IMG/VR virus record: IMGVR_UViG_3300035698_007208
Coordinates: 33,927-97,926 of that record
Reading direction: 5' to 3' (one strand)
From: a virus
DNA length: 64,000 nucleotides
Shown: positions 23,201 through 40,586 of the stretch, in pieces
Numbering within the stretch: position 1 is the first letter of the stretch
Layout: every line of letters starts with the position of its first letter
The notes under the pieces: generated by a model
Database searches by the model: none
The model's input: only the letters and a program-made list of their open reading frames with translations
What the model was told of the DNA's origin: nothing
Made by a program: the position numbers and the translations under genes

Positions 23201-24885
23201 TTAACGATATACCAAAGGATATAAAGATTGCAGTGTGTATGGCCGGACAAATACGCACAGGTGAGTATGCTTACGATAATATAATTCGTTTTTTAGGAAA
23301 ACATGCAGATCAGTGTGATTTTTTTATACATACATGGGACAACGAGACATCTAAGAGAGTCAATGGTAATTTTTTGAATAAGGTGTTTCATAATGCAAAT
23401 CCAGACATAGATGTTTTGCGTAATGTTGATTATCAAGAAAAAATAAATAGATTTATTGAGTTATATTCACCGAAAGCTTTCTTAGTTGAAAACTCAGATG
23501 TGTTAGAAGACTATGTTCAACCGTCATTAAGTGTTGGCCCAATCTGGTATACTACTTCCAAAAGTTTTGAAATAATGGATAACTATGCAACAGAAAATAA
23601 CATACATTATGATGTTGTATTAAAGATTAGACCAGACGTAATCTTTCCTGACTGCAGAACTGTTGATGCTGATATTAAGAGCATACTGTCTAACTATGAA
23701 ACTGTGATTTTAAGTGACATTTATTCATCTACTCGTCTCGATGACGTATTTTGGGTCACAACCCACGCTACAGCAAAAAAGCTTAAAATAATGTACCAGC
23801 ACTTAGATAGTCCTCATGCCCCTATTAAGTATTTGTTGAATAATCAGTTAGTAAACAAATCAACAACATGGGGTAATTATCCGCACACAGTATATAGATA
23901 CGAGACCTTGCGACTGTCGCCATTGTCAAATTTTACTGAATGCTTTAATATCAGTAATCAATTATATAGTCCGGATGAATCAAAAAAGATGTTAACGCCA
24001 GCTTCAAAAACTTCAGAAGTTTTTCCAACCAATATTATAATAGTGGCAACTAATTTTGAACAATATAATATTGTTAGACCTAATTACACATTAAGTGATT
24101 ATAACGGTATTATGCAGATTGAGCATGTACTTAACGCTACTACAGTAAACCTACGATACAGGATTACAGTAGTGTTATCAAGTTATAATGAAAAACTACA
24201 CAGCATAGCGAACTATTTGCGTAAAACATATGCTGCAATTAATCTTAATGTTTTAGTAATAAATGACACACATAATGATTGGGTGGAAACTGCAAAATAC
24301 TGCCTTCCTCAAATCATAACAGGTGACCATGAAGCAATAATTATTAAACATGTGACTACATGCTCAATGATTCCAAATGAAGACAGTAATTTCCGATGTG
24401 TTGATGTTAATAATAACGAAATTGGCTTGCATCGATATACATCAGTAAATGCAATGTTAGACAACTCAACTACAGTTAAAAATTTACAGTGTGCCATAAC
24501 ACATGATTACCGCAGTTTGTCTGAGTGGATAACAAATAATGATAAGTCTACGATTTTTTGCGACATAGATGGTACTATTGTTGTAGCACAACCCAAGGAC
24601 CAATATCACGTTGACCCTATCCCTTTATCTGAAAATATTAGTGCATTGCAGGAAGCACTATTAAATGGTGCGCGTATAATATTCACTACTGCACGGCCAA
24701 AATCTGCAGATAACAGAACAAAAGAAATGTTGCATAAATTAGGATTTCTTAATTTTGAACTAATATCTGGACTAATGAATGCAAAGAGGATTTTAATTAA
24801 TGATTACACGGACAGTGTTCCGGCACCTAGAGCAATCGGAATAAACATTGAGAGAAACACTAATACATTAAAGGGAAAATTATGA
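23197..24885 (+). CDS. Glycosyltransferase-like domain fused to HAD phosphatase (562 aa)
   Basis: Start taken at ATG 23197, overlapping the previous TGA. Residues 1-270 belong to a family with four copies in this cluster, marked by IAVCMAGQIRTGEYAYDNI, FFIHTWDN and a YDVVLKIRPDV acidic site. A linker of about 180 residues follows. The C-terminal 110 residues are a HAD-superfamily phosphatase with the nucleophile motif DIDGT (Asp456, Asp458), an FTTARP motif and a closing LINDYTD. The HAD part would dephosphorylate a small sugar phosphate, and the fusion suggests that phosphate removal and transfer are coupled. Catalysis by the N-terminal domain is inferred from its GT-A-like pattern only. Confidence 0.7.
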   Translation: MINDIPKDIKIAVCMAGQIRTGEYAYDNIIRFLGKHADQCDFFIHTWDNETSKRVNGNFLNKVFHNANPDIDVLRNVDYQEKINRFIELYSPKAFLVENSDVLEDYVQPSLSVGPIWYTTSKSFEIMDNYATENNIHYDVVLKIRPDVIFPDCRTVDADIKSILSNYETVILSDIYSSTRLDDVFWVTTHATAKKLKIMYQHLDSPHAPIKYLLNNQLVNKSTTWGNYPHTVYRYETLRLSPLSNFTECFNISNQLYSPDESKKMLTPASKTSEVFPTNIIIVATNFEQYNIVRPNYTLSDYNGIMQIEHVLNATTVNLRYRITVVLSSYNEKLHSIANYLRKTYAAINLNVLVINDTHNDWVETAKYCLPQIITGDHEAIIIKHVTTCSMIPNEDSNFRCVDVNNNEIGLHRYTSVNAMLDNSTTVKNLQCAITHDYRSLSEWITNNDKSTIFCDIDGTIVVAQPKDQYHVDPIPLSENISALQEALLNGARIIFTTARPKSADNRTKEMLHKLGFLNFELISGLMNAKRILINDYTDSVPAPRAIGINIERNTNTLKGKL

Positions 24886-25715
24886 AAATAGCACTATGTT
24901 TTAGTGGACAGTTGCGCACATGGGAAGCATGCCTCCCATCGTGGGTGTACTTTATTAAGGAATTAAAAAAAGAAACTAATGCAGAAATTGATATATTCTT
25001 TCATGCCTGGGACTTTAATACAGACCATATGATGGCAGATGGTACTGTTAGTCAGGTTTCGACGCGAATACGACCAACAGAACAAGATAATGTAATTAGC
25101 AGCCTTGCACCAAAAAACTATCTTTTTGAAAATGAAAAAGTAAGTAAATATAGCAAGCTAGAAATAAAAAGATTAAAAGACAAAAATGCTGGATATTTTG
25201 GTAATGAGTTGTTTAGCTGGTCAGCAAGCCAATTTTATTCAACGATGTATGCTGCCCATTTAAAAAAATTGCATGAACTAAAGTATGATTTTAGATATGA
25301 TATTTGCTTTCGTATGCGGTTTGATTCATATTTTACTATTGACGCTATAGCTACATTGTTTCAAAAAGAACCCTGGGTTGATTTTAAGATTCCCGTGTAT
25401 AACAATATATATAGCTGCCACAACGGCAGTGTGGATGACTTTCCATTCGGCCAGATTGGTGATATTTTCTTTTATGCAGACAGTGTTACGTATGATCGAA
25501 TATGTGAATTCTACCGGTGGTTGCCGATATTTGGGGATCAGTTATTTTCTAAAGACAGTCCGCTGGTAGAATCAGCACTTTTTGCATACATACAGATGTG
25601 TAGCATAAAAATTAACTCAATACATGGCGCTCCATTAATTAATCGACCTATATCGTGGGTAGAACAGTTAAAAATAGCAAATATTGCACTAAAACCATAT
25701 GAGACTATAGTATGA
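24882..25715 (+). CDS. Glycosyltransferase-like family, copy 2 (277 aa)
   Basis: The N-terminus KIALCFSGQLRTWEACLPSW, FFHAWDFN and YDICFRMRFDSYF match the layout of the neighbouring copies at 23197, 25712 and 28779. It is the minimal form without extra domains. ATGA overlaps join it to both neighbours. The family looks like an exostosin/GT-type fold acting on nucleotide sugars, but I know no characterised member; a soluble cytoplasmic protein is expected. Confidence 0.65.
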   Translation: MKIALCFSGQLRTWEACLPSWVYFIKELKKETNAEIDIFFHAWDFNTDHMMADGTVSQVSTRIRPTEQDNVISSLAPKNYLFENEKVSKYSKLEIKRLKDKNAGYFGNELFSWSASQFYSTMYAAHLKKLHELKYDFRYDICFRMRFDSYFTIDAIATLFQKEPWVDFKIPVYNNIYSCHNGSVDDFPFGQIGDIFFYADSVTYDRICEFYRWLPIFGDQLFSKDSPLVESALFAYIQMCSIKINSIHGAPLINRPISWVEQLKIANIALKPYETIV

Positions 25716-26683
25716 TAACCCAAGATAACCGCCAACTTATTGAGCATTTGTCAAAAAAGAAAAAAACGCCAGATAATATTAATACCAAGAAAGAAAAAAT
25801 ATTAGTTAATAAAAATGACCTGCTAGGGACAGAGAAAAAATTAAGGGTTGCGGTATGTTTTAGTGGACAACCAAGAACCTGGAAATCAACATCAACTAAC
25901 ATAAAACATACATTTGAGAAATCACTTAATATTGATGGTAATTGTAAAATCAACGTTGATTATTTTATACACACTTGGACTATGGATACTTGGCGAACAT
26001 TTGGAGAAGATGTGTGGACAGCAAAAAAGCAATTTCATAATCACAAAGAATTGACAAAATCACTAATTGCTGAGTACAACCCAAAAGGAATTATTATTGA
26101 CTCGCCGTTATTTTTAACACCAACATTAAATGATCGAGCTTGGGACCCAATGTTTTACAGTCACGAACAATCATTGATGTTAAAAAAACAATACGAGTTA
26201 CAGCACAAATTTTATTACGATATAGTTTTCAAGGTTCGATTTGATGTTATATACGATCCGACTCTGCCATTAGTAATCAGTAGACCAACTTCCCACTGTT
26301 GTTATACAGTGGGGATTAATAAATTTCCCAGGGAATTTAATTATAACAATTTTGATGATGTTATGTTTTACGGTGACAGCGCAACTATGGATTTAGTTGG
26401 TGACTTGTATTCGACATATAAGATACTGCATCGTGTTACAAATATAGTCGATAACTTCGATAATTACGACTATACACAATATTATGGGCCTGGTTGCTTG
26501 CTCTACAAGCACATGACAAACCTAGGTATATTACCTGTGGTTATGTCTGTCTTAACTGCATACGCAATTTGCCGCGATCCAACTATTGATTCTCCCTATT
26601 CATTAGGTGATTTTGATAAAATTCACAACGTCCACAAGGACTGGTATACCCAAGGATACGATTCTGACTACATGCAGCAATAA
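25712..26683 (+). CDS. Glycosyltransferase-like family, copy 3, with basic N-terminal extension (323 aa)
   Basis: An extra 44 residues, rich in Lys/Asn, precede the family core (LRVAVCFSGQPRTWKSTSTN, YFIHTWTMDTW, YDIVFKVRFDVIYD). ATGA overlaps the upstream copy. The downstream SGNH gene reads into its 3' end by 77 bases in another frame. Donor and acceptor are unknown. Confidence 0.65.
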   Translation: MITQDNRQLIEHLSKKKKTPDNINTKKEKILVNKNDLLGTEKKLRVAVCFSGQPRTWKSTSTNIKHTFEKSLNIDGNCKINVDYFIHTWTMDTWRTFGEDVWTAKKQFHNHKELTKSLIAEYNPKGIIIDSPLFLTPTLNDRAWDPMFYSHEQSLMLKKQYELQHKFYYDIVFKVRFDVIYDPTLPLVISRPTSHCCYTVGINKFPREFNYNNFDDVMFYGDSATMDLVGDLYSTYKILHRVTNIVDNFDNYDYTQYYGPGCLLYKHMTNLGILPVVMSVLTAYAICRDPTIDSPYSLGDFDKIHNVHKDWYTQGYDSDYMQQ

Positions 26684-27557
26684 ATTACAAATAATATGCG
26701 ACGGGGACAGTTGGGTATTTGGTTCTGAAATAGCATCACCCGAGATAGTGTCCCAGCATCCACCAGACAAGTATGTTGGTGAATATGACTTTCTTGAAAG
26801 TAATGACAGTTATCGTATTCCTAGAATATTCCCTTCACATTTAGGAAAGCTCCTAGATGCGGAGGTAGTTAATTTATCTTGGCCAGCTGACGACAATAAT
26901 ACTATATTAACACGTATAATGTCTTATATTTGTGGTGAGTATATTCAAAATAATAAACCAACTGATAATTTAATTGTTATGGTAGGATGGACAAGTCCTG
27001 AACGAAATAGTTTTTGGTATAAAGATGATAATATCTCTTGTCCATTTCGGTTATGGCCTCATGTTGCAAACTTTGATACTGTTCAGCAAAAAGAATTTTG
27101 GAAACTGTACGTATTGTACATGTATCATAGAGAGGAATATTTAGTAAGACATGTAAAAAATGTGATTCAGTTTCAAAATTTCTGCAAGGCACATAATATT
27201 AATTGGTTATGCTGGAATAGTTTTTATCAAGATCCTACCCAACATGTTAATGAATGGAAAGATCTTGATATTGGTGCTGAATTAGAAACATTAAATGTAG
27301 GCGGATATTCTTTGACCAACAGTGAATTAAATAAACGGGCTAGTGTAGCATCCAATATAAAAGCAATATGGGATACGGTTGATCCAATTCGTTTTTATAA
27401 AAAAAATGAAATCAATAACACATTTAAAACATTTCTTACATTGCCAGAAAATAATATTAAAGATCCGTTTATTGGGTTACATCCTAGTCCTGAAGGCCAC
27501 GAAGCATGGGCTAAAGAATTAATCAAATACATGAAGGAGAATAAGTTAATTGACTAA
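26607..27557 (+). CDS. SGNH/GDSL-hydrolase-like protein, start uncertain
   Basis: The conserved core begins at about residue 26 with LQIICDGDSWVFGSE (block I GDS, Ser35) and closes with GLHPSPEGHEAWA, carrying the catalytic His. Family members are esterases or O-acyl transferases acting on carbohydrates. The ATG at 26607 would put 25 residues of unrelated sequence before the domain and overlap the previous gene by 77 bases. No ATG, GTG or TTG lies closer, so either that start or an unusual codon (for example CTG 26664 behind AAGGA) is used. Together with the next gene it suggests removal or addition of acyl groups on the glycan. Confidence 0.65.
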   Translation: MILIKFTTSTRTGIPKDTILTTCSNKLQIICDGDSWVFGSEIASPEIVSQHPPDKYVGEYDFLESNDSYRIPRIFPSHLGKLLDAEVVNLSWPADDNNTILTRIMSYICGEYIQNNKPTDNLIVMVGWTSPERNSFWYKDDNISCPFRLWPHVANFDTVQQKEFWKLYVLYMYHREEYLVRHVKNVIQFQNFCKAHNINWLCWNSFYQDPTQHVNEWKDLDIGAELETLNVGGYSLTNSELNKRASVASNIKAIWDTVDPIRFYKKNEINNTFKTFLTLPENNIKDPFIGLHPSPEGHEAWAKELIKYMKENKLID

Positions 27558-28332
27558 ATCTATAGTAGTATGCGGCGATAGTTTTGCAGTAGGCATCGGA
27601 TGTCGAGATCTGAAAACAGAACCATTTGGTCAATTATTATCGGCTAAGTTAAACCAGCCAATTTTAAATCTAGCAAAAGGGTCTAGTACGAACATGAGTA
27701 TTTATTTGCAAGCAAAGCATGTCGTTGATAACTTGACTGATACAACAGACCTTGTTATAATTGGAAACACAAGCTATGACAGAATTGAATGGTTTAAGCA
27801 TGACCATGACGTCCTATTGAAAGAGGTTACAAACGAGACCGTAATGTATGATAAGTACGCACCGTACGATGGGAGTTATGTACAAACACTGCCATCTCCA
27901 ATGCCAAATAGCACACAGGCGTTGTTTACTGAAAATTTACTAGGTATAGTAGACTACTGGGAAACACAGAATACCCCAGATGGCTATTACAAAAGATTTA
28001 AAGATGAGCCAAAAGCACGAATGAAGGCATTGTACGATTATGCATTGTTAGTACATCATCATGATCTTAATCGGATTAACAGTATTGGCGTATTAACTAT
28101 GGCGCATGAATTATTAAAGCGCGCCAATGTTAATCACCTGATAATCTCACACGAGCCAAATGAATATGCTAAATATATGGATGATATTAACATTGTTAAT
28201 GTTGATTGGGGTAAGTTAAGTTTGGAATTTCCAGATGATCTACTTACGATGCACACGGGCGCAGGTGGGCATAAGTCAGCATTTAATAGTGTGTACCAAA
28301 AATTAATTGATAATAACTGGATAAAGGAATAG
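27550..28332 (+). CDS. SGNH/GDSL-hydrolase-like protein with TTG start
   Basis: A 260-residue protein. SIVVCGDSFAVGIGC (GDS at residues 9-11), the LAKGSSTN block, an IIGNTSYDR block and C-terminal MHTGAGGHKSAF follow the SGNH order, ending with the His. The start is TTG 27550, supported by AAGGAG ten bases upstream and by the absence of an ATG before block I. It overlaps the previous SGNH gene by 8 bases. The two SGNH proteins differ in sequence and are not a simple recent duplication. A carbohydrate O-acyl esterase or transferase role is inferred. Confidence 0.7.
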   Translation: MTKSIVVCGDSFAVGIGCRDLKTEPFGQLLSAKLNQPILNLAKGSSTNMSIYLQAKHVVDNLTDTTDLVIIGNTSYDRIEWFKHDHDVLLKEVTNETVMYDKYAPYDGSYVQTLPSPMPNSTQALFTENLLGIVDYWETQNTPDGYYKRFKDEPKARMKALYDYALLVHHHDLNRINSIGVLTMAHELLKRANVNHLIISHEPNEYAKYMDDINIVNVDWGKLSLEFPDDLLTMHTGAGGHKSAFNSVYQKLIDNNWIKE

Positions 28333-28335
28333 CGT

Positions 28336-28782
28336 GTGGCACACATAGCAAAAAAAGTAGATAAGCCCTGGGGATACGAAATTTGGTTAGAAGATGGCAA
28401 AAATACTCCGTATGCATTTAAGGAAATATTCTTTAAGGCCAACAATCAAACTAGTCTCCAAGTACATCGCTATAAAATAGAAACTAGCGTTGTTAAAAGT
28501 GGAACAGGTATATTGCTCAAAAGCAAAGAACTATTTGATATTGACGCATTTTTAGAAACCGGAATGACGCCTGAGGATATAGCAGCTTATATTAGTACTA
28601 TGGAAATGATACCAATGGTTGAAGGGACGGCAATTACTATTCTACCAGGATTTGTTCATCGGGTTATTGCTACCACAGATTTAGTATTTTTTGAAACAAG
28701 CACAACTGAGTTAAATGATGTGATTAGACTTCAAGACGATACTAACAGAATGCACGGCAAAATTGATAAGGAACACTTATGA
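28336..28782 (+). CDS. Cupin, mannose-6-phosphate isomerase C-terminal type
   Basis: A 148-residue cupin starting at GTG 28336 after AAAGGAAT. KPWGYEIWL at the N-terminus, LQVHRYKIET, a GTG turn and ITILPGFVHRVIATTDLVFFETSTTEL match the C-terminal sugar-phosphate isomerase cupin of type II phosphomannose isomerases. The family interconverts or binds hexose phosphates. The usual guanylyltransferase half is absent, so this would be a stand-alone isomerase or binding domain that feeds the pathway. ATGA overlap with the next gene. Confidence 0.75.
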   Translation: MAHIAKKVDKPWGYEIWLEDGKNTPYAFKEIFFKANNQTSLQVHRYKIETSVVKSGTGILLKSKELFDIDAFLETGMTPEDIAAYISTMEMIPMVEGTAITILPGFVHRVIATTDLVFFETSTTELNDVIRLQDDTNRMHGKIDKEHL

Positions 28783-29663
28783 GAATTGCACTATGCTTTA
28801 GTGGAATGATCAGAGAGGCATCACCAGCCGCCGCAAATATCAAACAATGGATTGGCAATGTGATGCCGTCAATAGATTTTTTTATGCATACGTGGGACGT
28901 TAGCCAGGATAAGCCGTGGCACCCGGGACACACAGGAATTCATAGTAGCTCGGGACCATCGCGGGCAATATTGCTTAACAGCAATTATAATCTACATCCG
29001 CCAGTAGACAGTAGTGATTTAATTAAAGGAATGCTACAACAATATAAACCATTTAAAAAAATCCGTGTTGATAACCTTGAAAGTGCATGTAAAAGACATA
29101 TTATTGCTGCCCAGCCATTATGGTACTCTTGGGCGCAAAGTAATAAACTAAAAGAAGAGTACGAAAAAGAACACAGATTTGTGTATGACATTGTATTAAA
29201 GGTACGCACTGACATGGTTAGTCCTTTGGGAATAACCCTTGCATCAGATATTGCATATTATGAAAAAGACCCGGCAAAATTTTATGTGTGGGGTTCATCC
29301 GGCGGTAAGCATATGTCTAATTCTAAGAATTCCAATATTGCTATTGGCTTTGCTGAGTTAGATAAGCTCCGCGAGTGCAGACTGCATGGTACAGATTTCA
29401 TGATAGAATTTGATAAATACCTTTATAATCGGCACATTAGAACAAAAGTACCGTTGGACGGTACCGAAACTGTGTATCGTTCAGTATGTTCGTCAAGCAG
29501 CCTAGACTTTATTGCGTGTTTGGTGGTTGAACACTTTTTTTACCATTCAGCAGCGACATTTGACCGCATGTGCAGGGACAACCTCGAGTTTAAAAACAAG
29601 TATTTTTTATTAAAAGACGACCTAGAACAAGCAGCAATGCGTAACACAGGAATGCATGCGTGA
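28779..29663 (+). CDS. Glycosyltransferase-like family, copy 4 (294 aa)
   Basis: RIALCFSGMIREASPAAANI, FFMHTWDVSQDKPW and YDIVLKVRTDMVSP follow the family plan of the copies at 23197, 24882 and 25712, though the Arg-Thr after the SGQ-type turn is altered to SGMIRE. It is joined to the cupin by ATGA and to the nucleotidyltransferase-kinase fusion by GTGA. The function of the family remains unassigned. Confidence 0.65.
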   Translation: MRIALCFSGMIREASPAAANIKQWIGNVMPSIDFFMHTWDVSQDKPWHPGHTGIHSSSGPSRAILLNSNYNLHPPVDSSDLIKGMLQQYKPFKKIRVDNLESACKRHIIAAQPLWYSWAQSNKLKEEYEKEHRFVYDIVLKVRTDMVSPLGITLASDIAYYEKDPAKFYVWGSSGGKHMSNSKNSNIAIGFAELDKLRECRLHGTDFMIEFDKYLYNRHIRTKVPLDGTETVYRSVCSSSSLDFIACLVVEHFFYHSAATFDRMCRDNLEFKNKYFLLKDDLEQAAMRNTGMHA

Positions 29664-31192
29664 AAAACACTGTCATAATACCAACAGTGGGCTCCGGAAG
29701 CCGAATGGGCAGTATTGGATTATGCCTGAACAAAGCGTTAATTCCTTATAAAAACAAACCTATTATATCTCATATTATTGCAGGTTTTCCTAAAGATACT
29801 AAGTTTATTATTCCTGTTGGTTATCTAGCTGAACAAGTAATTAGTTACTTTGATGTAGCTCACATTGACCTCGATGTAGAATTTGTTCGTGTTGACGATT
29901 GGACATCATTGGCAAGCGGTACTATGAAAACACTGTTAATGTGCGAGCCATATGTGCATGGTCCATTTTGGTATGTATCGTGTGATACGTATTTTGATGA
30001 AGACATAATAAAGCAGCGTGAAGAGCGAAATTGTTTTTACATAGAAAGTTGCACCTCTAGTACTCCTGAAGACTACACTATGTTTTCTTTAGATATTAAT
30101 AAACAAATTGCTGATGTCAAATTTAAACTTAACGTGAGTACCGATTATCGAGCGTTCACTGGATTAATGTATATACATGATTATAGTAAATTATTTGAAT
30201 CAATGCGTAATTCATCTGCAACTGAATTTATATCAATTATACCAATTGGATCAAAAACTACAGAATTGGCTAGCTGGGTCGATTTAGGAACTGAAGTAAA
30301 ATATAGCAATGCCCTGCCAACCGAGCTTTATGACTTTACAAAGCCGGAAGAAATTACTTACGTAGGTGACACCACAGTAATAAAATGGTGGAAGGATGAT
30401 GCTATTGCTGAATTAAAATATAAAAAAGCAGTTTCTAACCCTGCTGTATTTCCTAATAATGTTAGATATTCAGGCAGCTTTTTGGCATACGATTTTAGTA
30501 AAGGAACAACGCTCTATGAAGCAAACTCGCATGATTACTTTCCTGAATTGTTAAATTGGTTAAATGAAAACTTTTGGAGTAATAACAATCACGATATTAC
30601 TAATTCGTGTTTAGAGTTTTATAAAACTAAAAGCCTAAAAAGAATTGACTTATTTCTGTTGAAATATCCGGATATATTCCAACCTAAAACTATTAATGGT
30701 ATTGCTGTAAAAAGTTACGATGATTACTTAGCTAATATCGATTGGGACTACTTGGCTAACAACTTTGTTTCTACTGCTATACATGGCGACTTGCAGTTTG
30801 ATAATATAATTGTAGATGATAATGGCAATTTTACGCTTATTGATTGGCGACATAATTTTGCTGACTTAAATGAAACCGGGGACTTATATTACGACTTAGC
30901 TAAACTTTTGGGTGGATTAATAATACAATATTCGGAAATTAAGAAAAACAACTTCTCAGTTAGCATAGACGAAAAGCACGATGCTGTGTCGCTAAACATA
31001 CCGACGATTGAAAATATTGAAATATTTAATAGCCAACTAGCAGTGTTTGCAGATGCTAATAATTTAGACTTACGAAAAATAAAATTATTAGTTCCTATAA
31101 TTTTTTGGAACATGTCTCCATTGCATACTGCACCGTTTGATACATTTTTGTGGTACCTTGGAATCATGTTATTTGCTAGTTTAGAAGAATAA
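29660..31192 (+). CDS. Nucleotidyltransferase fused to APH/choline-kinase-like kinase (510 aa)
   Basis: Starts at GTG 29660, overlapping the previous TGA. Residues 1-240 are a sugar-phosphate or LicC-like nucleotidyltransferase: VIIPTVGSGSRMGS (Gly11, Gly13, Arg15), LNKALIPY (Lys25) and the CDTYFDED metal site. Residues about 250-510 are an aminoglycoside/choline-kinase-type phosphotransferase with the catalytic loop HGDLQFDNI (375-383) and LIDWRH carrying the metal-binding Asp. One polypeptide could phosphorylate a small alcohol or sugar and then activate it as an NDP derivative, as LicA plus LicC do for choline. The real substrate is unknown. Confidence 0.8.
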   Translation: MKNTVIIPTVGSGSRMGSIGLCLNKALIPYKNKPIISHIIAGFPKDTKFIIPVGYLAEQVISYFDVAHIDLDVEFVRVDDWTSLASGTMKTLLMCEPYVHGPFWYVSCDTYFDEDIIKQREERNCFYIESCTSSTPEDYTMFSLDINKQIADVKFKLNVSTDYRAFTGLMYIHDYSKLFESMRNSSATEFISIIPIGSKTTELASWVDLGTEVKYSNALPTELYDFTKPEEITYVGDTTVIKWWKDDAIAELKYKKAVSNPAVFPNNVRYSGSFLAYDFSKGTTLYEANSHDYFPELLNWLNENFWSNNNHDITNSCLEFYKTKSLKRIDLFLLKYPDIFQPKTINGIAVKSYDDYLANIDWDYLANNFVSTAIHGDLQFDNIIVDDNGNFTLIDWRHNFADLNETGDLYYDLAKLLGGLIIQYSEIKKNNFSVSIDEKHDAVSLNIPTIENIEIFNSQLAVFADANNLDLRKIKLLVPIIFWNMSPLHTAPFDTFLWYLGIMLFASLEE

Positions 31193-31911
31193 TGCAATTT
31201 TTAAGTTTTAGTGAATTTCCTGGCATTACTGGAAAGACTATCTATACTAAGCTATTTGACTACTACGGCATTAATGCGTCGTATACTCCAATGAAGACTG
31301 CATCAATAAAAGATAGTATAGACAGCCTGGATCTTTCGGTAATTGCAGGATTTAGTGTTAGCATGCCATTCAAAAAAGACATAATACCGTTATTAGATAT
31401 AGCAGACCAGTCAGTTGTTGATTATAATTCATGCAATACAGTGTTAGTACGCGATAGCAAACTATACGGTTATAATTGTGATTTGTCAGGTGTAATTAAT
31501 GCTTCGCAGCATGTATTGTCGTTATACGGTCTCGAATCGCGTATTATTATTTTAGGACAAGGAGCAATGGGTCAAATGTTTGAAACATATTTGAGGCGGA
31601 TTGGTTTCACAAATATAACATTTTACTCTAAGAATTTGAACTGGAATGAGCGCCACGCTGACGCTGAGATATTGATTAACTGTACTCCTTACGGTACACC
31701 AGATTCGCAAAGTCCAATAGCGTTTTTAAATAAATATATAGTAGCAGTAATTGACTTAGCAATCAAACCTGGCAATTTAGCTGCTCAATGCAAGTCAATA
31801 AATTATGTATCTGGATATGAGTTTTATAAACACCAATTTTTAGAACAATTTAAGGTTTACACTAATATAACAATAACCTCCGACATAATCAATAAGGTAA
31901 TAAATGAGTAG
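31192..31911 (+). CDS. Shikimate dehydrogenase (AroE)-like enzyme
   Basis: A 239-residue protein. It contains GFSVSMPFKKDI with the family Lys (Lys61), NTVLVRDSKLYGYNCDLSG with the catalytic Asp (Asp97), and a Rossmann turn ILGQGAMGQMF (122-127). The AroE family reduces 3-dehydroshikimate or related cyclic ketones with NAD(P)H. It is shorter than host AroE (about 270) and the N-terminal substrate motif SKSP is not recognisable, so a related polyol or cyclitol may be the substrate. TAATG coupling ties it to the kinase-nucleotidyltransferase. Confidence 0.75.
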   Translation: MQFLSFSEFPGITGKTIYTKLFDYYGINASYTPMKTASIKDSIDSLDLSVIAGFSVSMPFKKDIIPLLDIADQSVVDYNSCNTVLVRDSKLYGYNCDLSGVINASQHVLSLYGLESRIIILGQGAMGQMFETYLRRIGFTNITFYSKNLNWNERHADAEILINCTPYGTPDSQSPIAFLNKYIVAVIDLAIKPGNLAAQCKSINYVSGYEFYKHQFLEQFKVYTNITITSDIINKVINE

Positions 31912-32884
31912 ATTTAAATTAGGAATAGGCCCAATGAGCGACATGATCATTCAATCCAGCTTTGACTATGCATCAACGGCGCAGAAAGACGTAATGCTTA
32001 TCGCAAGCAGAAACCAAATTGATTATAATAGTGGCTATGTTATGTCTACTTCTGAACTACAGCAAAAATTTGCAACATTTGATAAAACACACGTTATGGT
32101 GTGTAGGGATCATTGTGGTCCATATTTTCTAGACACTGAAAAGAATATTTCGTTACGTGAGGCAATTCTGTCAACAAAGAAAACTATAGAGCATGACATT
32201 GAAAATGGCTTTGATTTAATTCATATTGACACTAGCCGATGTGATAATCAATATGCGGTAGCTGAGGAACTGTTTAATTTTAGTATTAGACTTAACCCTA
32301 ATATAAAGTTTGAATTTGGAACTGAAGAAAATGTTGGTGTTGCAGCAGCGACACAAAAGTTTAAAGATGACATTGCCTTTGCGTCACAAGTACCAAATAT
32401 GGTATATGTAGTAGCACAAACCGGAAGCCTTACTATGGAAGATCGACAAATTGGTAGTTTTGATGTACCGTGGGTAAATAGGCTAGTACAAGAAGCAAAT
32501 GCATCAGGTGTTAAATTAAAAGAACATAATGCTGATTACTTAACTGTCGATCAGATAAAATTACGCAAGAATGCAGGTGTACATGCATGTAATATTGCAC
32601 CGCAGCTTGGTGTAATACAAACAAATATAATATTAAAATTAGCAAAACAATATAAAATAGATACTACTGCATTTAAGCAACTTGTGCTATCTAGCAACAA
32701 GTGGACTAAATGGCACCTTACTGGAAATGATGATGTTAAGATACGAATTGCAGGACATTATTGTTTTAATAGTAAGGAGTATCGTGAACTTGAAGACGCG
32801 ATATCGGTATACTGTGACGTGTATGCAGCAGTTAAGCAAGGAATTACTACATGCTTGGCCGCGTATTACGATAACCAGGAATAG
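31904..32884 (+). CDS. GatZ/KbaZ-like (tagatose-bisphosphate aldolase subunit family) protein
   Basis: A 326-residue TIM-barrel-type protein. LGIGPMSDMIIQSSFDYAS, MLIASRNQIDYNSGYVMST and VMVCRDHCGPYF match the opening strands of the class II tagatose-bisphosphate aldolase non-catalytic subunit family (GatZ, KbaZ, AgaZ), with later IHIDTSRCDN. The family is shorter here than the usual 420 residues. In hosts these proteins support or carry out aldol chemistry on ketose phosphates. In this operon the enzyme probably makes or cleaves the sugar or polyol skeleton that is then reduced, phosphorylated and activated by its neighbours. Confidence 0.7.
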   Translation: MSRFKLGIGPMSDMIIQSSFDYASTAQKDVMLIASRNQIDYNSGYVMSTSELQQKFATFDKTHVMVCRDHCGPYFLDTEKNISLREAILSTKKTIEHDIENGFDLIHIDTSRCDNQYAVAEELFNFSIRLNPNIKFEFGTEENVGVAAATQKFKDDIAFASQVPNMVYVVAQTGSLTMEDRQIGSFDVPWVNRLVQEANASGVKLKEHNADYLTVDQIKLRKNAGVHACNIAPQLGVIQTNIILKLAKQYKIDTTAFKQLVLSSNKWTKWHLTGNDDVKIRIAGHYCFNSKEYRELEDAISVYCDVYAAVKQGITTCLAAYYDNQE

Positions 32885-32887
32885 ACT

Positions 32888-33028
32888 ATGAAAGATTTAA
32901 ATAATGAAGATGAAGATAATGATATTAAGTTAGATGCTGATAAAAAAGAAAAGCAGCTTGAAGAAAAGAAAAAACTTGAAAAGAAAATTGCTGAGATGCG
33001 TAAGCGAGACCCATTCATTTATAAATAG
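32888..33028 (+). CDS. 46-aa charged protein ending in RDPFIYK
   Basis: ATG 32888 follows AGGAATAG and the frame runs to TAG 33026-33028. The protein is a highly charged helix (Asp/Glu first half, Lys/Glu second half) ending KRDPFIYK. The final codons ATT TAT AAA TAG form a perfect TATAAATA late promoter box for the next gene, so the C-terminus is constrained at the DNA level. Too short for assignment. Confidence 0.6.
   Translation: MKDLNNEDEDNDIKLDADKKEKQLEEKKKLEKKIAEMRKRDPFIYK
33020..33027 (+). promoter_or_regulatory. T4-type late promoter box TATAAATA
   Basis: An exact match to the T4 late consensus, embedded in the last codons of the 46-residue gene and nine bases before the carbamoyltransferase ATG at 33037. 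Confidence 0.65.
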
Positions 33029-33036
33029 GCAAGGTA

Positions 33037-34614
33037 ATGATTAGAACAATTTTAGGTGTCAGTTTTGGCTTCCACGATGCTGCTGTCTCTGTGGTTAACT
33101 ATGACACTGGTGAAATACTATTCGCATCACAAGCAGAAAGATATAGTAAAATAAAGAATGATCCGTGGTTACATGACGATCTAATTGCCAAAGCATTAAC
33201 TTACGGTAATCCAATTGTTATTGCGGTTAACGAAAACCCCTACCTCAAAAAACTAAGTCAGCTACGGTCTGGGCAGTTTCGAGAGGCATTACTTGGACCC
33301 ATGCCAAGCAAATGGCTTAATTTTTATCCCGAACTTAACGGAGTGCCGATTCAATATTACGGACATCATGAAAGTCATGCTGCTGCCGGATTATACGCAA
33401 TGGGATTAAATACGTTTGTTAAGACTGCTGGTAGAATGCGCTTTGGTATAGGGAGCGTATACGGTCCTGCTCCAATAGCAATAATGGTAATTGATGCGAT
33501 CGGTGAATTAGACACTGCGTCTATATGGAGTACAGACCATAACTTTAAACTTATTAAAGAAAGCTCAATCAAGTACCCAAACAGTTTGGGATTGTTTTAC
33601 ACTGCAATGACTCAGTATTTGGGGCTTAAGCCAATGGAAGACGAGTATATACTAATGGGCATGGCTGCTTATGGCAATAAAGAACGAGCATTTGCGCTGG
33701 CACAGCATTTAGGTAAAACATACTTTGTAGACGACAACAACAATCCTATGAAGGCTCGTGTAAATTTACATCGAGGATTACCTTATGACAGTGTGTTAGA
33801 AGAAGCAGATCAATTTGACATTGCACTAGCTACTCAAATTGAATTTGAAAGTCGCATGATGCGCTATGCTAAAGAAGCAAGCAACGTAAGCAATAACTTA
33901 ATTTATATGGGTGGGTGTGCATTGAATTGTGTTGCTAATACGCGACTGTCTGAACTATTTGATTCTGTGCAAATTATGCCTAATCCAGGAGATGCTGGTA
34001 GCTCATTGGGAGCCGCTGCATTGTCATACTTTAAACGAACTAATAAATTTTTGTCTGGATGGTCTCCTTATTTGGGACATGGCATTGTTGGAAAATATCC
34101 TGTTGATAAAGTGATCACTGCACTGTGTGAAAGTGGCATATGCGGAGTAGCAAATGGCAAGGCAGAATTTGGTCCTCGTGCATTAGGCAACCGCAGTTTG
34201 CTTGCTGACCCTAGAGATCCAACTATTAAAGATAGAGTAAATAAGATTAAGAAGCGGCAAGAATTTAGACCATTTGCTCCTATGATATTAGACAGTCACT
34301 TATCCCATGAGTTTGAAGTACCTTTGACTGCTAACCCAAACGAATTTTTATATATGCAACAAGCAGTAAAATGCAGAAACCCAGAGAAGTATCCGGCCAT
34401 AGTCCACGCAGACGGAACAAGTCGTGTACAAGTGGTTACCAAAGAGGCCCATCCTGAACTACATAAATTACTTTCAGAATGGAATAGAATAACTGGGTGT
34501 CCTATGTTGCTTAATACTAGCTTAAACATTAAAGGACAACCAATAGTAAATGATGAACAAGATGCTTATGATTTTGCAGAAAAGTACCAAGTTTCAGTGG
34601 TTACGTGTAAATAA
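33037..34614 (+). CDS. NodU/CmcH-family O-carbamoyltransferase
   Basis: A 525-residue enzyme of the carbamoyltransferase family, which uses carbamoyl phosphate and ATP to put a carbamoyl group on a hydroxyl of a sugar or antibiotic. Visible are VSFGFHDAAVSVV (9-20), the metal-site YYGHHESHAAAGLY (107-120), the sugar-kinase-like YMGGCALNCVANTRL and the C-terminal domain with FGPRALGNRSLLADPRD and KRQEFRPFAP. All hallmark residues are present and the length is normal, so the enzyme should be active. It has its own late promoter box and probably decorates the product of the preceding pathway. Confidence 0.9.
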   Translation: MIRTILGVSFGFHDAAVSVVNYDTGEILFASQAERYSKIKNDPWLHDDLIAKALTYGNPIVIAVNENPYLKKLSQLRSGQFREALLGPMPSKWLNFYPELNGVPIQYYGHHESHAAAGLYAMGLNTFVKTAGRMRFGIGSVYGPAPIAIMVIDAIGELDTASIWSTDHNFKLIKESSIKYPNSLGLFYTAMTQYLGLKPMEDEYILMGMAAYGNKERAFALAQHLGKTYFVDDNNNPMKARVNLHRGLPYDSVLEEADQFDIALATQIEFESRMMRYAKEASNVSNNLIYMGGCALNCVANTRLSELFDSVQIMPNPGDAGSSLGAAALSYFKRTNKFLSGWSPYLGHGIVGKYPVDKVITALCESGICGVANGKAEFGPRALGNRSLLADPRDPTIKDRVNKIKKRQEFRPFAPMILDSHLSHEFEVPLTANPNEFLYMQQAVKCRNPEKYPAIVHADGTSRVQVVTKEAHPELHKLLSEWNRITGCPMLLNTSLNIKGQPIVNDEQDAYDFAEKYQVSVVTCK

Positions 34615-37600
34615 TGTTTGATATATATTACGTGGGAACCAATAACGCAATGCAAGATGCTATGCCATCAGCAATTTGCATTTCTAATAAAACAGAAATT
34701 AAGGCTAATACAAAAATGTATTGGTTTATTGATGCTGATATAGAAATACTTGATTATTCAGTATTTGACTACACGCCACCAAATTACGACAAGAATTATG
34801 AGCATGTTTGGAAACAAAACAGCCAAACATATGGAGGTGTTCGACTTTTCCCTAAGACTAAAGTTATCGGTGTAAAGGAAGTTAATAAGGTAGTATGTAA
34901 GCAAACATTTGGTATACTTTATGAGCAAAACCCAGGCAATTATTTTCAAAATAATTTACATGCATCTCATGTATGGTGTGTTGATCCAGACTATAAGATA
35001 AACGACAATATCAATTGGGCCCCAAGCGAGTTTGAGCCTAATTATATACACAGTTTCCACTTGCGTAGTCAGCTCGAATACAAGTATCCGGACGATGAAG
35101 GAGGCATAAAGCTTTTTCCACGATCATGGAAAACATCCTCTACTAAATTTCATGGGTTTATCGACGCAAGTGTACATTATCCTATCGTGTTCTCTCGGAA
35201 TGTTACTGATTATGCCCAATGCGAATGGGGCCAACATGATTACGTGTGGTTAATTGATGCAGATTACAAAATTGATAATAAGACTGTTGACTGGGCTCCT
35301 AATCCATTTGAGGACCAAATGATTCATTCATTTAAAATGCCACACCAATTACAAGAAAAATATCCTCAAGCGATGGGTGGAATCAGATTAGTGCCACGTA
35401 GATGGGACATAGCAGAAACAAAAATACACATATCGTGTCCAATAGACGACGAAAATTATGATGTATTTTATGTAGATGACGATGAGTTTACAGCAGAAGC
35501 ATATACTGGCTATGCAAGTCGAAGTAAAACAGAATGGTTTTGGATTGTAGATCGTGACTTTCAATTTAACGGTAAGCTACTATATGTTCCTTCCTTTCAT
35601 GAAAGAGAGTACATACATGTATTTAAGGTTCCCGGCCACTTAGACGCTCGCTATCCTGCAACCATTACTGACGCGTGGGATAACAGGTGTGGTGGTATTC
35701 GGTTAATGCATAAGAACTTTGATATGACCAAACATAAGTATCAAGAACATGTAATTCCAGTTAAATATGATATTTTTTATACTAGCGACCCGACTGCTAA
35801 TTTAAGCAAGTGCGCTAAGAAAAGTAGATCAAAAATGTGTTGGGTGATTGACGACAAATACGCCATTAACAATGTTCTTAATTATGTGCCTACTCGCGAC
35901 GAGCAGCATTACTTGCTTAATTTTAAAATAATAGATCAATTGCAACACATATATCCTGAACAAGAAGGAGGTGTATGGCTTGTACCAAAAAATTATAATG
36001 AAAACACATCTATAAAATATAAAGACAAATTAAATATCAGCAGTAAACAGTATCCAATCTTATTTGTAGACGACGTAGATGATTACTCTGATGTAACTGA
36101 AGAATGTTGGTTAATAGATAAAGAATATCAAATTAACGATGCTATTGATTGGGTACCTAGTAATTTTGAAAGAGATTTTATTCATTCATTTCATATCCCA
36201 AATCAATTAATACACAAGTATCCATTTAAAATGGGCGGAGTTCGTTGGGTACCTAAAAACTGGGAATCTGCAGAAATAAAAATACATGATGATTCCCTGT
36301 TCTCATCACCAGTGTTTGAGGTTTACAATAATGAAGCTATTGGACGGCTTGCTACTACAAAAGATTGGTTTTGGGTAGTAAGTGATAGTGTTACATGCTT
36401 AGAGACATTTAATTTTAACTTTGTACCAAACGTATGGGATGATGGCAAAACGCACATATGGCAAAAGTTGAATCCAATTACGAATCGCCAATATGATTAT
36501 TCAGGTGTAAGTTTATGCCCTAAAGTGCAATCAAACACGGGCCGACCAAAATATATGCGACAGCCTGCTTGTACACAAAATGAATACCCAATATATTACC
36601 TAGTACCATCTGATTACGATAACCCGTTACAGCAAGCCTACGAGCGTCTGAGCAACAGAACAGAGGAAGACATGTACTGGGTAGTAGACGTGCTTACGCA
36701 AATCAGTCCAGAATTTGATTTTGGCTATTACCCTACTAATTGGGACATTAATAACATTCATATTTTTAGTGACGATATGGGAGAAAGAAAAGGTGTTAGG
36801 CTTGTACCTAAATCTTTATTCTTAAAACACAAATATACTGATGTAGAGATTTTAAATAATAGTTTTAATAAGTTAAAATATATCAACAATGTTGCGAGCA
36901 CTAAACCAGTATGGCCAGTGATTAACTTGGCACGAGTAGAAAAGGATGATTTTGTAAACACAATGAAGGCCGCAGTAACACCCTTTGTTTGGACCATTGA
37001 TTCTGATATTAAAGTTAATCAGGCCATACTGGAAAAAGGCTATATACCAGAAATTGCAGACTTAAAAAAAGTACATTGTTGGCAAAAACTTAACCCAAAT
37101 ACAGGTAAAGTTCATTCTTATGGTGGATTAAGATTATGGCCAACATCGGAAGATTACAGTAGTATTACAGCCTCATCAATTGAGCTAAATAAATTAAAAA
37201 ATTTAAAGTATATCAAGGACAACGGCAGCTCAATAAAGCCACTAGATATACTTTTTATTGCATACAATGACACAGCAGCTTACCGCAAGCATGCAGCATT
37301 AAGAGAACGTTTTGGCAATGTACGAATGGTTAATGGTGTAGATGGTATATTTGAGGCACACCAGGTTGCAGCTCGTATGGCAAATTCAGACATGTTTTGG
37401 GTAATAGACGGCGATGCTATTATTGAAGATGATTTTAATTTTAATTACTTGCCTGACGTGTATGATAAAGACGTAGTGCATGTATGGTCAAGTAAGAACC
37501 CAGTTAATAATTTAGTATACGGTTACGGGGGAATTAAACTATTACCAACACACATGGTCAGGGATGCAACAAGTTGGGGATTAGATTTTACAACTGGACT

Positions 37601-37907
37601 CAGTAATCGGATTAAAGTAATGCCCGAAATAAGTTGCACTACTGCATTTAATACTACAGCGTTTGATACTTGGAGATCAGCATTTAGGGAAAGTGTTAAA
37701 TTGTCAATATCGCAAGACCCAGATGCACCATCACGTCTAGCTGCTTGGCTAACCCCAATCTTAGATGCTGATTTTTCTTCCTTTGCAAAATTGGGTGCAG
37801 AACATGGAAAAGCGTTCGGAATTCAACACATAAATAATACAGAACAGTTAAATAATATTAATAACTACAGTTGGCTAGAGAAAAGGTTCGCAGAATGTCA
37901 AATATAA
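34614..37907 (+). CDS. Ten-repeat protein built of a GT-A-like module (1,097 aa)
   Basis: The protein is ten diverged copies, each 80-110 residues, of one module: a Y-D/P-I-x-F/Y strand, W-x-I/V-D-x-D followed by Y-x-I-N, then W-x-P, HSFH/HVW, QL-x-x-K/R-Y-P and a closing GG-I/V-R/K-L-x-P. The acidic triad is intact in units 1-4, 9 and 10 (DAD, DPD, DAD, DRD, DSD, DGD) and degenerate in units 5-8. Unit 10 has a 140-residue C-terminal extension (AFRESVKLS) shared with the separate gene at 18139-19113. The triad and fold pattern point to nucleotide-sugar binding, but the repeats look more like a scaffold or lectin array with one or a few active units. TAATG coupling to the carbamoyltransferase places it in the glycan pathway. 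Confidence 0.75.
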   Translation: MFDIYYVGTNNAMQDAMPSAICISNKTEIKANTKMYWFIDADIEILDYSVFDYTPPNYDKNYEHVWKQNSQTYGGVRLFPKTKVIGVKEVNKVVCKQTFGILYEQNPGNYFQNNLHASHVWCVDPDYKINDNINWAPSEFEPNYIHSFHLRSQLEYKYPDDEGGIKLFPRSWKTSSTKFHGFIDASVHYPIVFSRNVTDYAQCEWGQHDYVWLIDADYKIDNKTVDWAPNPFEDQMIHSFKMPHQLQEKYPQAMGGIRLVPRRWDIAETKIHISCPIDDENYDVFYVDDDEFTAEAYTGYASRSKTEWFWIVDRDFQFNGKLLYVPSFHEREYIHVFKVPGHLDARYPATITDAWDNRCGGIRLMHKNFDMTKHKYQEHVIPVKYDIFYTSDPTANLSKCAKKSRSKMCWVIDDKYAINNVLNYVPTRDEQHYLLNFKIIDQLQHIYPEQEGGVWLVPKNYNENTSIKYKDKLNISSKQYPILFVDDVDDYSDVTEECWLIDKEYQINDAIDWVPSNFERDFIHSFHIPNQLIHKYPFKMGGVRWVPKNWESAEIKIHDDSLFSSPVFEVYNNEAIGRLATTKDWFWVVSDSVTCLETFNFNFVPNVWDDGKTHIWQKLNPITNRQYDYSGVSLCPKVQSNTGRPKYMRQPACTQNEYPIYYLVPSDYDNPLQQAYERLSNRTEEDMYWVVDVLTQISPEFDFGYYPTNWDINNIHIFSDDMGERKGVRLVPKSLFLKHKYTDVEILNNSFNKLKYINNVASTKPVWPVINLARVEKDDFVNTMKAAVTPFVWTIDSDIKVNQAILEKGYIPEIADLKKVHCWQKLNPNTGKVHSYGGLRLWPTSEDYSSITASSIELNKLKNLKYIKDNGSSIKPLDILFIAYNDTAAYRKHAALRERFGNVRMVNGVDGIFEAHQVAARMANSDMFWVIDGDAIIEDDFNFNYLPDVYDKDVVHVWSSKNPVNNLVYGYGGIKLLPTHMVRDATSWGLDFTTGLSNRIKVMPEISCTTAFNTTAFDTWRSAFRESVKLSISQDPDAPSRLAAWLTPILDADFSSFAKLGAEHGKAFGIQHINNTEQLNNINNYSWLEKRFAECQI

Positions 37908-38068
37908 CATTAACAGATCAGCAAGTAAAATTATTACTTAGTTTTGCACCAAAAGAGTTAGCAAAAGATCTTCCTCAAGGATTAGATCCTTCGTTTTATT
38001 TTACACACCGGTACGAAAGTGATCTTAAAATATGCAAAGATCTTGCTATAATAAGAAAGTTAATTTAA
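37895..38068 (+). CDS. Small protein of unknown function (57 aa)
   Basis: Start taken at ATG 37895 (MSNITLTDQQVKLLLSFAPKEL), overlapping the repeat protein stop by 13 bases; the longer frame from 37871 lies inside that gene. Helical and soluble. No domain recognised. Confidence 0.5.
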   Translation: MSNITLTDQQVKLLLSFAPKELAKDLPQGLDPSFYFTHRYESDLKICKDLAIIRKLI

Positions 38069-38087
38069 TGATTACCCTTCAAAGAAG

Positions 38088-38798
38088 ATGTTTGGTGTGT
38101 ATGGAATGGATAATAGCATAATGCAAGGACCAACTCTTCTTAATTTAAACGACTGGGATTTAGTTAGCAAATACAACGACAATGGTACGTTAACATACTC
38201 TCCTAGTTTCTTAGAAAGAGCAGTACAGGGAAATTATCCTAAGGATGCGTTTTCCAAAGGACAAATAGCTAGTAAAAAATGGCTAATAGAAGAATTACAA
38301 AATTTAGATAATCACAGTTTCGAGAATATTGCCATTTTGGGCTGTTGGATCGGGGCATCAGTTGATTCCTTAGTTGAGGTACTAGACACACAGAGAATAT
38401 ACGGATTTGATTCCGACCCTGTTGCTATAGCCTTTGCAGAAAAACTGAATCAACACCATGTTCAAAACTCTTGGAAGTTTAAGGGAGTAGTTGAAGATGT
38501 AAATATGCTAGATACCAGTACCATGCAAATCCAAATAGGAGGTGAGCTCATAGAGGTGCAGCCCGATATGGTAATTAATACTAGTTGCGAGCACATGGGG
38601 GACGATTGGTTCCACAGTGCAGCACCTACACAGTTAATAGTTATGCAAACTAATAACTTTAAGGAATGGCACGAACACATTAATTGTGTATCAAGTGTTA
38701 AAGAAATGCAGGAGCAATACCCACTAAGTAATACACTTTATGCTGGTGAGCTCATTACCCCATCTTATAACCGCTACATGCAAATTGGAACAAAATGA
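38088..38798 (+). CDS. Class I SAM-dependent methyltransferase-like protein (236 aa)
   Basis: A Rossmann-type motif I (NIAILGCWIGASVDSLVEVL) and motif II acidic end (RIYGFDSDPVAIAFA), with a later MVINTSCEHM, fit a class I methyltransferase fold. The motif I glycine pattern is reduced (GCWIGAS), so activity is not certain. Substrate unknown. The start could be ATG 38106. ATGA coupling with the next gene. Confidence 0.6.
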   Translation: MFGVYGMDNSIMQGPTLLNLNDWDLVSKYNDNGTLTYSPSFLERAVQGNYPKDAFSKGQIASKKWLIEELQNLDNHSFENIAILGCWIGASVDSLVEVLDTQRIYGFDSDPVAIAFAEKLNQHHVQNSWKFKGVVEDVNMLDTSTMQIQIGGELIEVQPDMVINTSCEHMGDDWFHSAAPTQLIVMQTNNFKEWHEHINCVSSVKEMQEQYPLSNTLYAGELITPSYNRYMQIGTK

Positions 38799-39319
38799 CT
38801 ACAGTGATTAATTTATATGGTGGCCCTTCAAGTGGCAAAAGCACACAGGGCGCTGGTTTGTTTTATAAAATGAAAGCAGCAGGATACAGTGTGGAGTTAG
38901 TAAATGAATTTGCTAAAGATGTCGTGTGGGAAGGCAATACCCCAATGCTTCGGGATCAATTATTTATGTTGGCTCACCAAAACCGTAAGCTAGTTAGACT
39001 AGCAGACAAAGTAGATTATATAATAACAGACAGCCCTGTCTTGCTCAGCATCGTGTATCGCCATGTGTATGAAGGGCCTATGTACAGTGACTTAATAGAC
39101 AAGCTAGCATTAGAGTGTTATGGAATGTACAGCAACATTAATGTTATGTTAGAGCGAGGGAATAGCTTTGTTAATGAAGGACGAGCTCAAGATTATGAAC
39201 AGTCGCTAGCAATAGATAATGAAATTATAAAAGTGTTTGAAGAGAACGATGTTGTATATCGTTCTCTCCCAGTTGACGACCAATGTGTGGATAAAATATT
39301 ATTTAATTTGGGAAGGTAA
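38795..39319 (+). CDS. NadR/AAA_28-type P-loop kinase-like ATPase
   Basis: A 174-residue P-loop protein with Walker A GGPSSGKST (9-17), ELVNEFAKDVVWEG after strand 2 and YIITDSPVLL as the Walker B-like strand, as in the NadR kinase/AAA_28 family. NadR-type kinases phosphorylate nicotinamide riboside, but many phage relatives have no known substrate. Given the NadV-NadM genes in the window a link to NAD is tempting but not demonstrated. The 3' end overlaps the convergent minus-strand gene by 21 bases with no terminator between them. Confidence 0.75.
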   Translation: MTTVINLYGGPSSGKSTQGAGLFYKMKAAGYSVELVNEFAKDVVWEGNTPMLRDQLFMLAHQNRKLVRLADKVDYIITDSPVLLSIVYRHVYEGPMYSDLIDKLALECYGMYSNINVMLERGNSFVNEGRAQDYEQSLAIDNEIIKVFEENDVVYRSLPVDDQCVDKILFNLGR

Positions 39320-39544
39320 GTCGTCTTTCCCTTTTGCTTCTATTCTAGCTCGCATTGCAGGAGCGCAATGGTGTTCGTACCAAACGTCACGAACCCTGGC
39401 GGCAGCATCAAAAGCTTTTACACTATCTAAAATAAATCTAGCTAAAATAAAATCCGGAGTATCAGATTGATTTTCTCTATTGTACTTGTTTAACAGTTTT
39501 GTTAGGTCTTGTTTAAAGTGACTTTCTTCTATTATTCTACTCAT
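39299..39544 (-). CDS. Small phage protein of unknown function (81 aa)
   Basis: A helical protein (SRIIEESHFKQDLTKLLNKYNRE, then DFILARFILDSVKAFDAAARVRDVWYEHH). It converges on, and overlaps, the NadR-like gene by 21 bases. No motif. Last gene of the small operon read from the promoter at 40548. Confidence 0.6.
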   Translation of the reverse strand: MSRIIEESHFKQDLTKLLNKYNRENQSDTPDFILARFILDSVKAFDAAARVRDVWYEHHCAPAMRARIEAKGKDDLPSQIK

Positions 39545-39561
39545 AGTTACCCCATATTGTT

Positions 39562-40363: not shown

Positions 40364-40364
40364 A

Positions 40365-40520: not shown

Positions 40521-40547
40521 AATACTGTCCTTTTAGTGTAAGTACAC

Positions 40548-40577: not shown

Positions 40578-40586
40578 CTATAAAAT

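Follow-up and report, generated by a model that had tools for sequence, protein, structure and literature searches.

The plus-strand genes at positions 29660-34614 of a 64,000-nucleotide stretch of viral DNA (the window; it spans bases 33927-97926 of an IMG/VR virus record 97.9 kb long) form a coupled, conserved operon, which we read, with a probability of about 0.62, as a nucleotide-sugar biosynthesis cassette inside a larger glycan gene cluster of a T4-like phage. A preliminary description of the window had proposed here a phage-encoded route to an activated sugar or polyol, in which five proteins take successive steps: a nucleotidyltransferase (NTase) fused to an APH-type kinase, an AroE-like dehydrogenase, a GatZ/KbaZ-like aldolase-family protein, a 46-residue protein and an O-carbamoyltransferase (CarbT). 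All five open reading frames (ORFs) were found on the + strand at the positions given in Table 1; the domain assignments held up, and the junctions are tight. The NTase-APH gene overlaps the AroE-like gene by 1 nt (TAATG) and the latter overlaps the KbaZ-like gene by 8 nt; gaps of 3 nt and 8 nt separate the 46-residue ORF from the KbaZ-like and CarbT genes, respectively, and CarbT overlaps the next gene by 1 nt. The cassette sits inside a run of + strand genes extending from about 20384 to 39319. Gene families, conserved residues and linkage all support a route to an activated sugar-like compound. The list of members needed revision, however: the cassette begins upstream of 29660, with a core cupin gene that had been missed, and the 46-residue ORF is not conserved.

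The gene order was sought in other viral sequences, in three sets of loci that share some contigs, so that the counts below are of contigs and not of independent events. Around the KbaZ-like gene (67 loci, of which the 30 with 4 kb of flank at either end were usable), cupin and NTase-APH genes were present in 30/30 cases and AroE in 12/30. Around NTase-APH (best 80 of 275 relatives, 57 loci usable), the cupin and KbaZ genes were each found at 55 loci, AroE at 45, CarbT at 35 and a KdsC-like HAD gene at 29. Loci centred on AroE (best 80 of 115 relatives, 60 with enough flank) carried cupin, NTase-APH and KbaZ without exception (60/60), and CarbT in 38 cases. The AroE proteins of 75 newly fetched loci fell into 53 clusters at 90% identity. 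This linkage is far above chance and holds almost without exception to identities as low as about 35-40%. The genes most often follow one another as cupin, NTase-APH, AroE, (KdsC HAD), KbaZ, CarbT. The arrangement is therefore found in other phages, and the possibility raised beforehand, that the genes are unlinked in all relatives, did not materialize. AroE and CarbT, which had been cast as successive steps, are frequent but optional members.

One sister phage (L047) repeats nearly the entire window cluster, mostly at ~35-60% identity, with relatives of the radical-SAM, SGNH, glycosyltransferase (GT)-like, cupin, NTase-APH, AroE, KbaZ, CarbT and 1097-aa proteins. The 46-residue ORF is absent there, the KbaZ gene overlapping CarbT directly. 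This ORF, which has no family match in Pfam, NCBIfam or PHROG scans, was rejected as a pathway member on account of its absence from L047.

The cassette is phage-borne but not phage-specific. When cellular genomes were scanned with the KbaZ-like protein (best 80 of 118 relatives, 54 loci usable), NTase-APH was found nearby at 34 loci, the cupin at 31, a KdsC-like HAD gene at 27, a C-methyltransferase-like gene at 17 and AroE at 7. At 16/54 loci, many of them from lactobacilli and other Firmicutes/Actinobacteria, none of these partners was nearby; these loci are probably catabolic. Carriers include Pelagibacteraceae (Pelagibacter), Prochlorococcus, Nitrotoga, Paraglaciecola/Aliiglaciecola, candidate phyla radiation (CPR) bacteria and DPANN archaea (Woesearchaeota). 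One carrier in culture is Aliiglaciecola lipolytica E3 (L095). A metagenome-assembled genome of the Proteobacteria (L119) combines KbaZ, cupin, NTase-APH and AroE with a relative of the window's radical-SAM protein (21740-23200). A phage-only pathway was thus rejected, the core occurring on bacterial and archaeal contigs as well. At some archaeal and CPR loci (L069, L073, L074, L076, L085), a further, unfused NTase of about 230-243 aa lies close to NTase-APH.

Among GenBank phages, KbaZ and NTase-APH occur together only in Marine virus AG-345-E15 (MH319741), a single-cell virus without AroE, in the order small HAD, cupin, NTase-APH, KbaZ. KbaZ matches in Listeria "phage" records were set aside, since these may be host DNA. 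More distant NTase-APH homologues are found in S-SRM01 (order SIS, NTase-APH, HAD), in Chryseobacterium phage MA9V-2 (as "GlmU", near KpsF/GutQ) and in Enterococcus phage 9183 (HAD and NTase). The pairing with SIS and HAD genes in cultured phages suggests that the NTase-APH fusion acts in sugar-phosphate pathways. By analogy, KbaZ and the cupin may occupy the place that the SIS isomerase holds elsewhere.

The NTase-APH protein matches the APH family (PF01636) above its cut-off, as well as NTP_transf_3 and archaeal GlmU-like NTases. In the AlphaFold model (pLDDT 91.7), a fold search assigned the NTase domain to the RmlA/MurU fold. A profile of 23 relatives matched RmlA-like 3hl3, 5xhw/6jq8 (a 6-deoxy-D-mannoheptose-pathway protein) and other sugar NTases, and more weakly CTP:inositol-1-P and ribitol-5-P cytidylyltransferases. 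The GxGxR, Lys and Asp signatures of sugar-1-phosphate NTases are present; K25, D109, D208, H375-G-D377, N382 and D395-W-R397 are invariant among the aligned proteins. The NTase is predicted to be of the sugar-1-phosphate type (RmlA/MurU/HddC). In the kinase domain, HGD377..N382 and D395WR, which includes the metal-binding loop Asp, are as in APH-type kinases. The HGDxxxxN and DWR motifs are kept in 157/158 relatives, the one exception being probably a stray match. A degenerate kinase site in close homologues, a possibility raised beforehand, was therefore rejected. In a quick tree, whose root and placement of the window's own protein were not settled, most phage sequences fell into virus-only groups while cellular ones stood mostly together with some phages. 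Two fusion genes close to those of the cassettes, in L196 (from 5732) and L206 (from 6195), lie beside SGNH and 1097-aa-like genes, whereas none of the cupin, AroE and KbaZ genes is within reach; here the fusion possibly uses a host-made sugar.

In the KbaZ-like protein, PF08013 matches the first ~110 residues (32.9 bits; curated cut-off 26.7) and the GatZ fold spans the whole protein in the AlphaFold model (pLDDT 90.4). The best PDB folds were 2fiq (GatZ; TMq 0.80-0.85, E about 1e-14) and 3txv, followed by class II fructose-bisphosphate aldolases (FBA), and hhalign gave 95.6% over 263 columns. GatZ and KbaZ of E. coli, long regarded as aldolase chaperones, are fructose-6-P/tagatose-6-P C4-epimerases for which a Zn-dependent retro-aldol mechanism via Asp87, His88, Glu171 and His257 has been proposed (PMC11907403). 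In the aligned relatives D87, H88 and H257 are conserved and E171 is E or D. Formation of a carbon skeleton, the role originally assigned to this protein, is thus one possibility only. Lys279, a family-distinguishing residue (PMC11907403), is Asn in all 29 aligned relatives, which on this count fall outside GatZ/KbaZ. The window protein is also shorter (326 rather than 420 residues) and lies outside any galactitol or N-acetylgalactosamine operon. By the Lys279 position, the KbaZ-like proteins are a separate branch and not GatZ/KbaZ proper.

The AroE-like protein matches Shikimate_dh_N (PF08501) and, in the PDB, 3don, 1npy (HI0607, a nearly full-length match) and the 5-ketofructose reductase 7cok. 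Its K61, N82, D97 and Q215 correspond to K65, N86, D102 and Q244 of E. coli, and the catalytic Lys, Asp, Asn and Gln are retained in essentially all relatives (K and D of the Lys65/Asp102 dyad in 75/75 viral ones). However, Ser16 of the shikimate-carboxylate clamp is never Ser among the aligned relatives, which have a PGxxG-type motif instead; the state of Ser14 varies with the alignment. The protein falls below the NCBIfam shikimate dehydrogenase equivalog cut-offs. Because Ser16 is missing throughout the subfamily, the enzyme is probably not a shikimate dehydrogenase, and a role in the shikimate pathway was rejected on this ground and on that of the cassette linkage. The 5-ketofructose reductases, also of the AroE family, act on sugars (PMC7954740). 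They and HI0607 share fold family and catalytic Lys/Asp with the window protein, which differs from them in its low identity, its PGxxG motif and its linkage to a nucleotide-sugar cassette. Most likely it carries out a redox step on a keto-sugar.

The cupin matches PF01050 (E=1.8e-5; 25.3 bits, cut-off 23.6) and PF07385 and aligns with the C-terminus of E. coli ManC/CpsB, DDxxR tail included. It retains the Gln, first His, Glu and last His of the PMI site, but another of the His ligands is replaced. A phmmer search of the PDB gave chance matches only, to designed ankyrin repeats. The cupin, a core member of the cassette, is predicted to be a ketose/aldose(-phosphate) isomerase. Stand-alone PMI-type isomerases are already known in phages, for example S-SCSM1 (PMC9602691); the cupin by itself is thus not new.

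CarbT has both NodU/TobZ domains (Carbam_trans_C/N), with Kae1-like and YrdC-like motifs, and its PDB matches are novobiocin carbamoyltransferase, GdmN and TobZ. A search with CarbT (20 usable loci) returned other marine-phage carbamoyltransferases unlinked to the cassette, so that CarbT alone is not diagnostic. Some of these (L239, L248-L250, L253, L265) lie near a UDP-glucose dehydrogenase-like gene.

Families, active-site residues and linkage were read from sequence and predicted structure; from them we infer substrates, order of steps, product and biological use as follows. The KbaZ-like enzyme would rearrange a ketose phosphate through metal-dependent retro-aldol and aldol reactions (GatZ-type C4 epimerisation, or true aldol addition), and the PMI-like cupin would convert ketose to aldose. 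The APH-type domain would then phosphorylate the anomeric position (C1), and the fused NTase would turn the sugar-1-phosphate into a nucleoside diphosphate (NDP)-sugar. Where present, a HAD enzyme (KdsC-like or small HAD) may strip the original distal phosphate, like GmhB in heptose activation. The AroE-like enzyme would reduce or oxidise, in an NAD(P)H-dependent step, a keto group of a non-shikimate-like substrate, and CarbT would O-carbamoylate the sugar or the finished glycan. Adjoining GT-like and SGNH-like proteins may use the product in tailoring or transfer, and the product probably serves a host-surface or virion glycan. That phages, bacteria and archaea share this route, in which a stand-alone GatZ-type aldolase/epimerase, a PMI-like cupin and often an AroE-family sugar reductase build a rare sugar and NTase-APH activates it to a previously undescribed NDP-sugar, is a tentative proposal to which we give slightly less than an even chance.

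The scheme resembles several known systems. The NDP-heptose pathway (GmhA, HddA, GmhB, HddC) has the same steps, namely isomerase, anomeric kinase, HAD phosphatase and sugar-1-P nucleotidyltransferase. In the cassette, however, the kinase is of the APH and not the GHMP type and is fused to the NTase, the isomerase is a PMI-like cupin, KbaZ-like and AroE-like enzymes are added and the HAD is not constant. Neither a SIS isomerase (GmhA) nor a GHMP kinase was found among the genes scanned; the cassette would work like the NDP-heptose route without being a member of it. In AmgK/MurU cell-wall salvage, an APH-family kinase and then a MurU-type NTase act on N-acetylmuramic acid or N-acetylglucosamine. 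The cassette has the same pair of activities, including the MurU fold match, but on a single polypeptide whose gene is in almost every case linked to those for KbaZ and the cupin. The T4-like cyanophage P-SSM2 carries 24 lipopolysaccharide genes, for which a change of the host surface was suggested (PMC2984593); a large glycan cluster in a T4-like phage and possible host-surface alteration are the points of likeness. No characterised pathway of the cassette's composition was found in the open-access literature, in agreement with the preliminary description. That literature held nothing relevant on clusters of KbaZ, KdsC and nucleotidyltransferase genes or on AroE as a phage auxiliary gene, which is weak evidence.

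Several points weigh against a nucleotide-sugar cassette as outlined here. With Asn in place of Lys279 throughout, the substrate of GatZ need not apply to the KbaZ-like proteins. For the kinase domain, no relative with a known sugar substrate emerged: its only match was the aminoglycoside phosphotransferase 3uzr (E=0.003), and the fold search, dominated by the NTase domain, gave no lead to a kinase substrate. The cupin has lost a His ligand of the PMI site. No local HAD was found in 36/74 related phage loci, so that the phosphatase step would be host-supplied or unnecessary. Finally, no assay of any cassette enzyme was found in the sources consulted.

The preliminary description left open a sugar or a polyol. 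In the latter case AroE would turn the ketone of a KbaZ-made skeleton into an alcohol, from which the NTase-kinase would yield a CDP-polyol or NDP-cyclitol. The intact AroE dyad and the weaker profile matches to the inositol and ribitol enzymes fit such a route. However, the best NTase matches are to sugar-1-phosphate enzymes of the RmlA/MurU/heptose type, AroE is missing from 18/30 KbaZ-centred viral cassettes, and a PMI-like isomerase, needless for a polyol, accompanies AroE at every viral locus. Because of this isomerase and the type of the NTase, an aldose is favoured and the polyol or carbocycle appears unlikely. It is less probable still that the cassette salvages a free host sugar in the manner of AmgK/MurU, with the other genes as passengers and a KbaZ-like subunit that is catalytically dead or chaperone-like. 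The former standing of GatZ/KbaZ as chaperones and the isolated fusions of L196 and L206 would agree with this, whereas the epimerase activity of the E. coli proteins (PMC11907403), the near-universal linkage and a metal site whose Asp, His, Glu/Asp and His are kept by every aligned protein speak against it.

Modified DNA bases are substrates of some phage carbamoyltransferases, and genes for a QueE-like protein and a GTP cyclohydrolase in the window make a modified base plausible. The product might conceivably serve to glycosylate or carbamoylate hypermodified phage DNA instead of a surface or virion glycan. Yet the cassette has GT-like, SGNH-like and UDP-glucose dehydrogenase-like genes for neighbours and is set apart from the DNA-metabolism block, and homologous cassettes occur on cellular contigs; we consider such a use very improbable.

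If the nucleotide-sugar reading is correct, the cassette represents a new pathway and provides a function for a GatZ/KbaZ branch and a non-shikimate AroE subfamily. Many aquatic phages would then be equipped with a complete operon for making and activating a sugar, along with tailoring enzymes, and it would become testable whether they remodel the glycans of the host surface or glycosylate virions with a sugar that they make themselves. A related sugar, not yet described, would be predicted in Pelagibacter, Prochlorococcus, CPR bacteria and DPANN archaea.

Table 1. Genes of the cassette and its surroundings (window coordinates).
Feature	Position	Strand	Size	Basis
HAD domain at C-terminus of 577-aa GT-like protein (23152-24885)	24538..24885	+		Homology to stand-alone HADs
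SGNH-like protein (DUF6071)	26607-27557	+		PF19547
SGNH-like protein	27550-28332	+		Sequence only
Cupin, PMI type II-like (ManC C-terminal-like)	28336..28782	+		PF01050, PF07385, alignment to ManC/CpsB
WavE/GT-like protein between cupin and NTase-APH	28779..29663	+		phrog_13607
NTase (residues ~1-225) and APH-type kinase (~226-510)	29660..31192	+	510 aa	Pfam, AlphaFold, profiles
AroE-like NAD(P)-dependent reductase, distinct subfamily (PGxxG motif)	31192..31911	+	239 aa	PF08501, PDB matches, residues
GatZ/KbaZ-like metal-dependent aldolase/epimerase	31904..32884	+	326 aa	PF08013, AlphaFold, residues
Highly charged ORF	32888..33028	+	46 aa	No family match
O-carbamoyltransferase (NodU/TobZ type)	33037..34614	+	525 aa	PF16861 E=3e-52, PF02543 E=5e-27, phrog_1601
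Protein with repeated WVIDxD-type blocks, following CarbT	34614..37907	+	1097 aa	PF13641 E=0.017 only

Genes surrounding the cassette are consistent with a glycan cluster. The WavE/GT-like protein, a putative glycosyltransferase, is weakly similar to the cluster's other GT-like genes. Stand-alone homologues of the HAD domain lie directly before KbaZ in L051-L066 and before the cupin in MH319741, and no KdsC-like HAD was found elsewhere across the whole 97.9-kb record; the domain is the window's only candidate for this phage's cassette phosphatase. Relatives of the two SGNH-like proteins, possible tailoring enzymes, were found near 39/57 and 33/57 NTase-APH loci. The blocks of the 1097-aa protein have YGGxxLxP ends. 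It is related to the product of 18139-19113 and to three smaller genes that follow CarbT in L047, has relatives near 25/57 NTase-APH loci and is possibly a multi-domain glycosyltransferase-like protein of no confident family.

The carrier is likely a large T4-like myovirus, given gp46/47-like T4 recombination and tail proteins in the upstream part of the record, which were judged by eye, and PHROG matches within the window to tail fibre, NAMPT and nucleotide-metabolism proteins. Positions 1-10152 of the window hold the C-terminal part of a 5279-aa ORF (record 28239-44078), the remainder of which lies outside. On the minus strand, a nicotinamide phosphoribosyltransferase (52947-54470) and a cytidyltransferase/NUDIX-type protein (55049-56170) could be a phage NAD+ salvage pair. 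The QueE-like radical SAM and GTP cyclohydrolase genes (58027-60682, minus strand) suggest that a 7-deazaguanine of the preQ0 type is made, which may serve to modify DNA. Nucleotide-sugar epimerase-like and weakly glycosyltransferase-like proteins encoded at 61887-63968, also on the minus strand, make up a second small glycan gene group.

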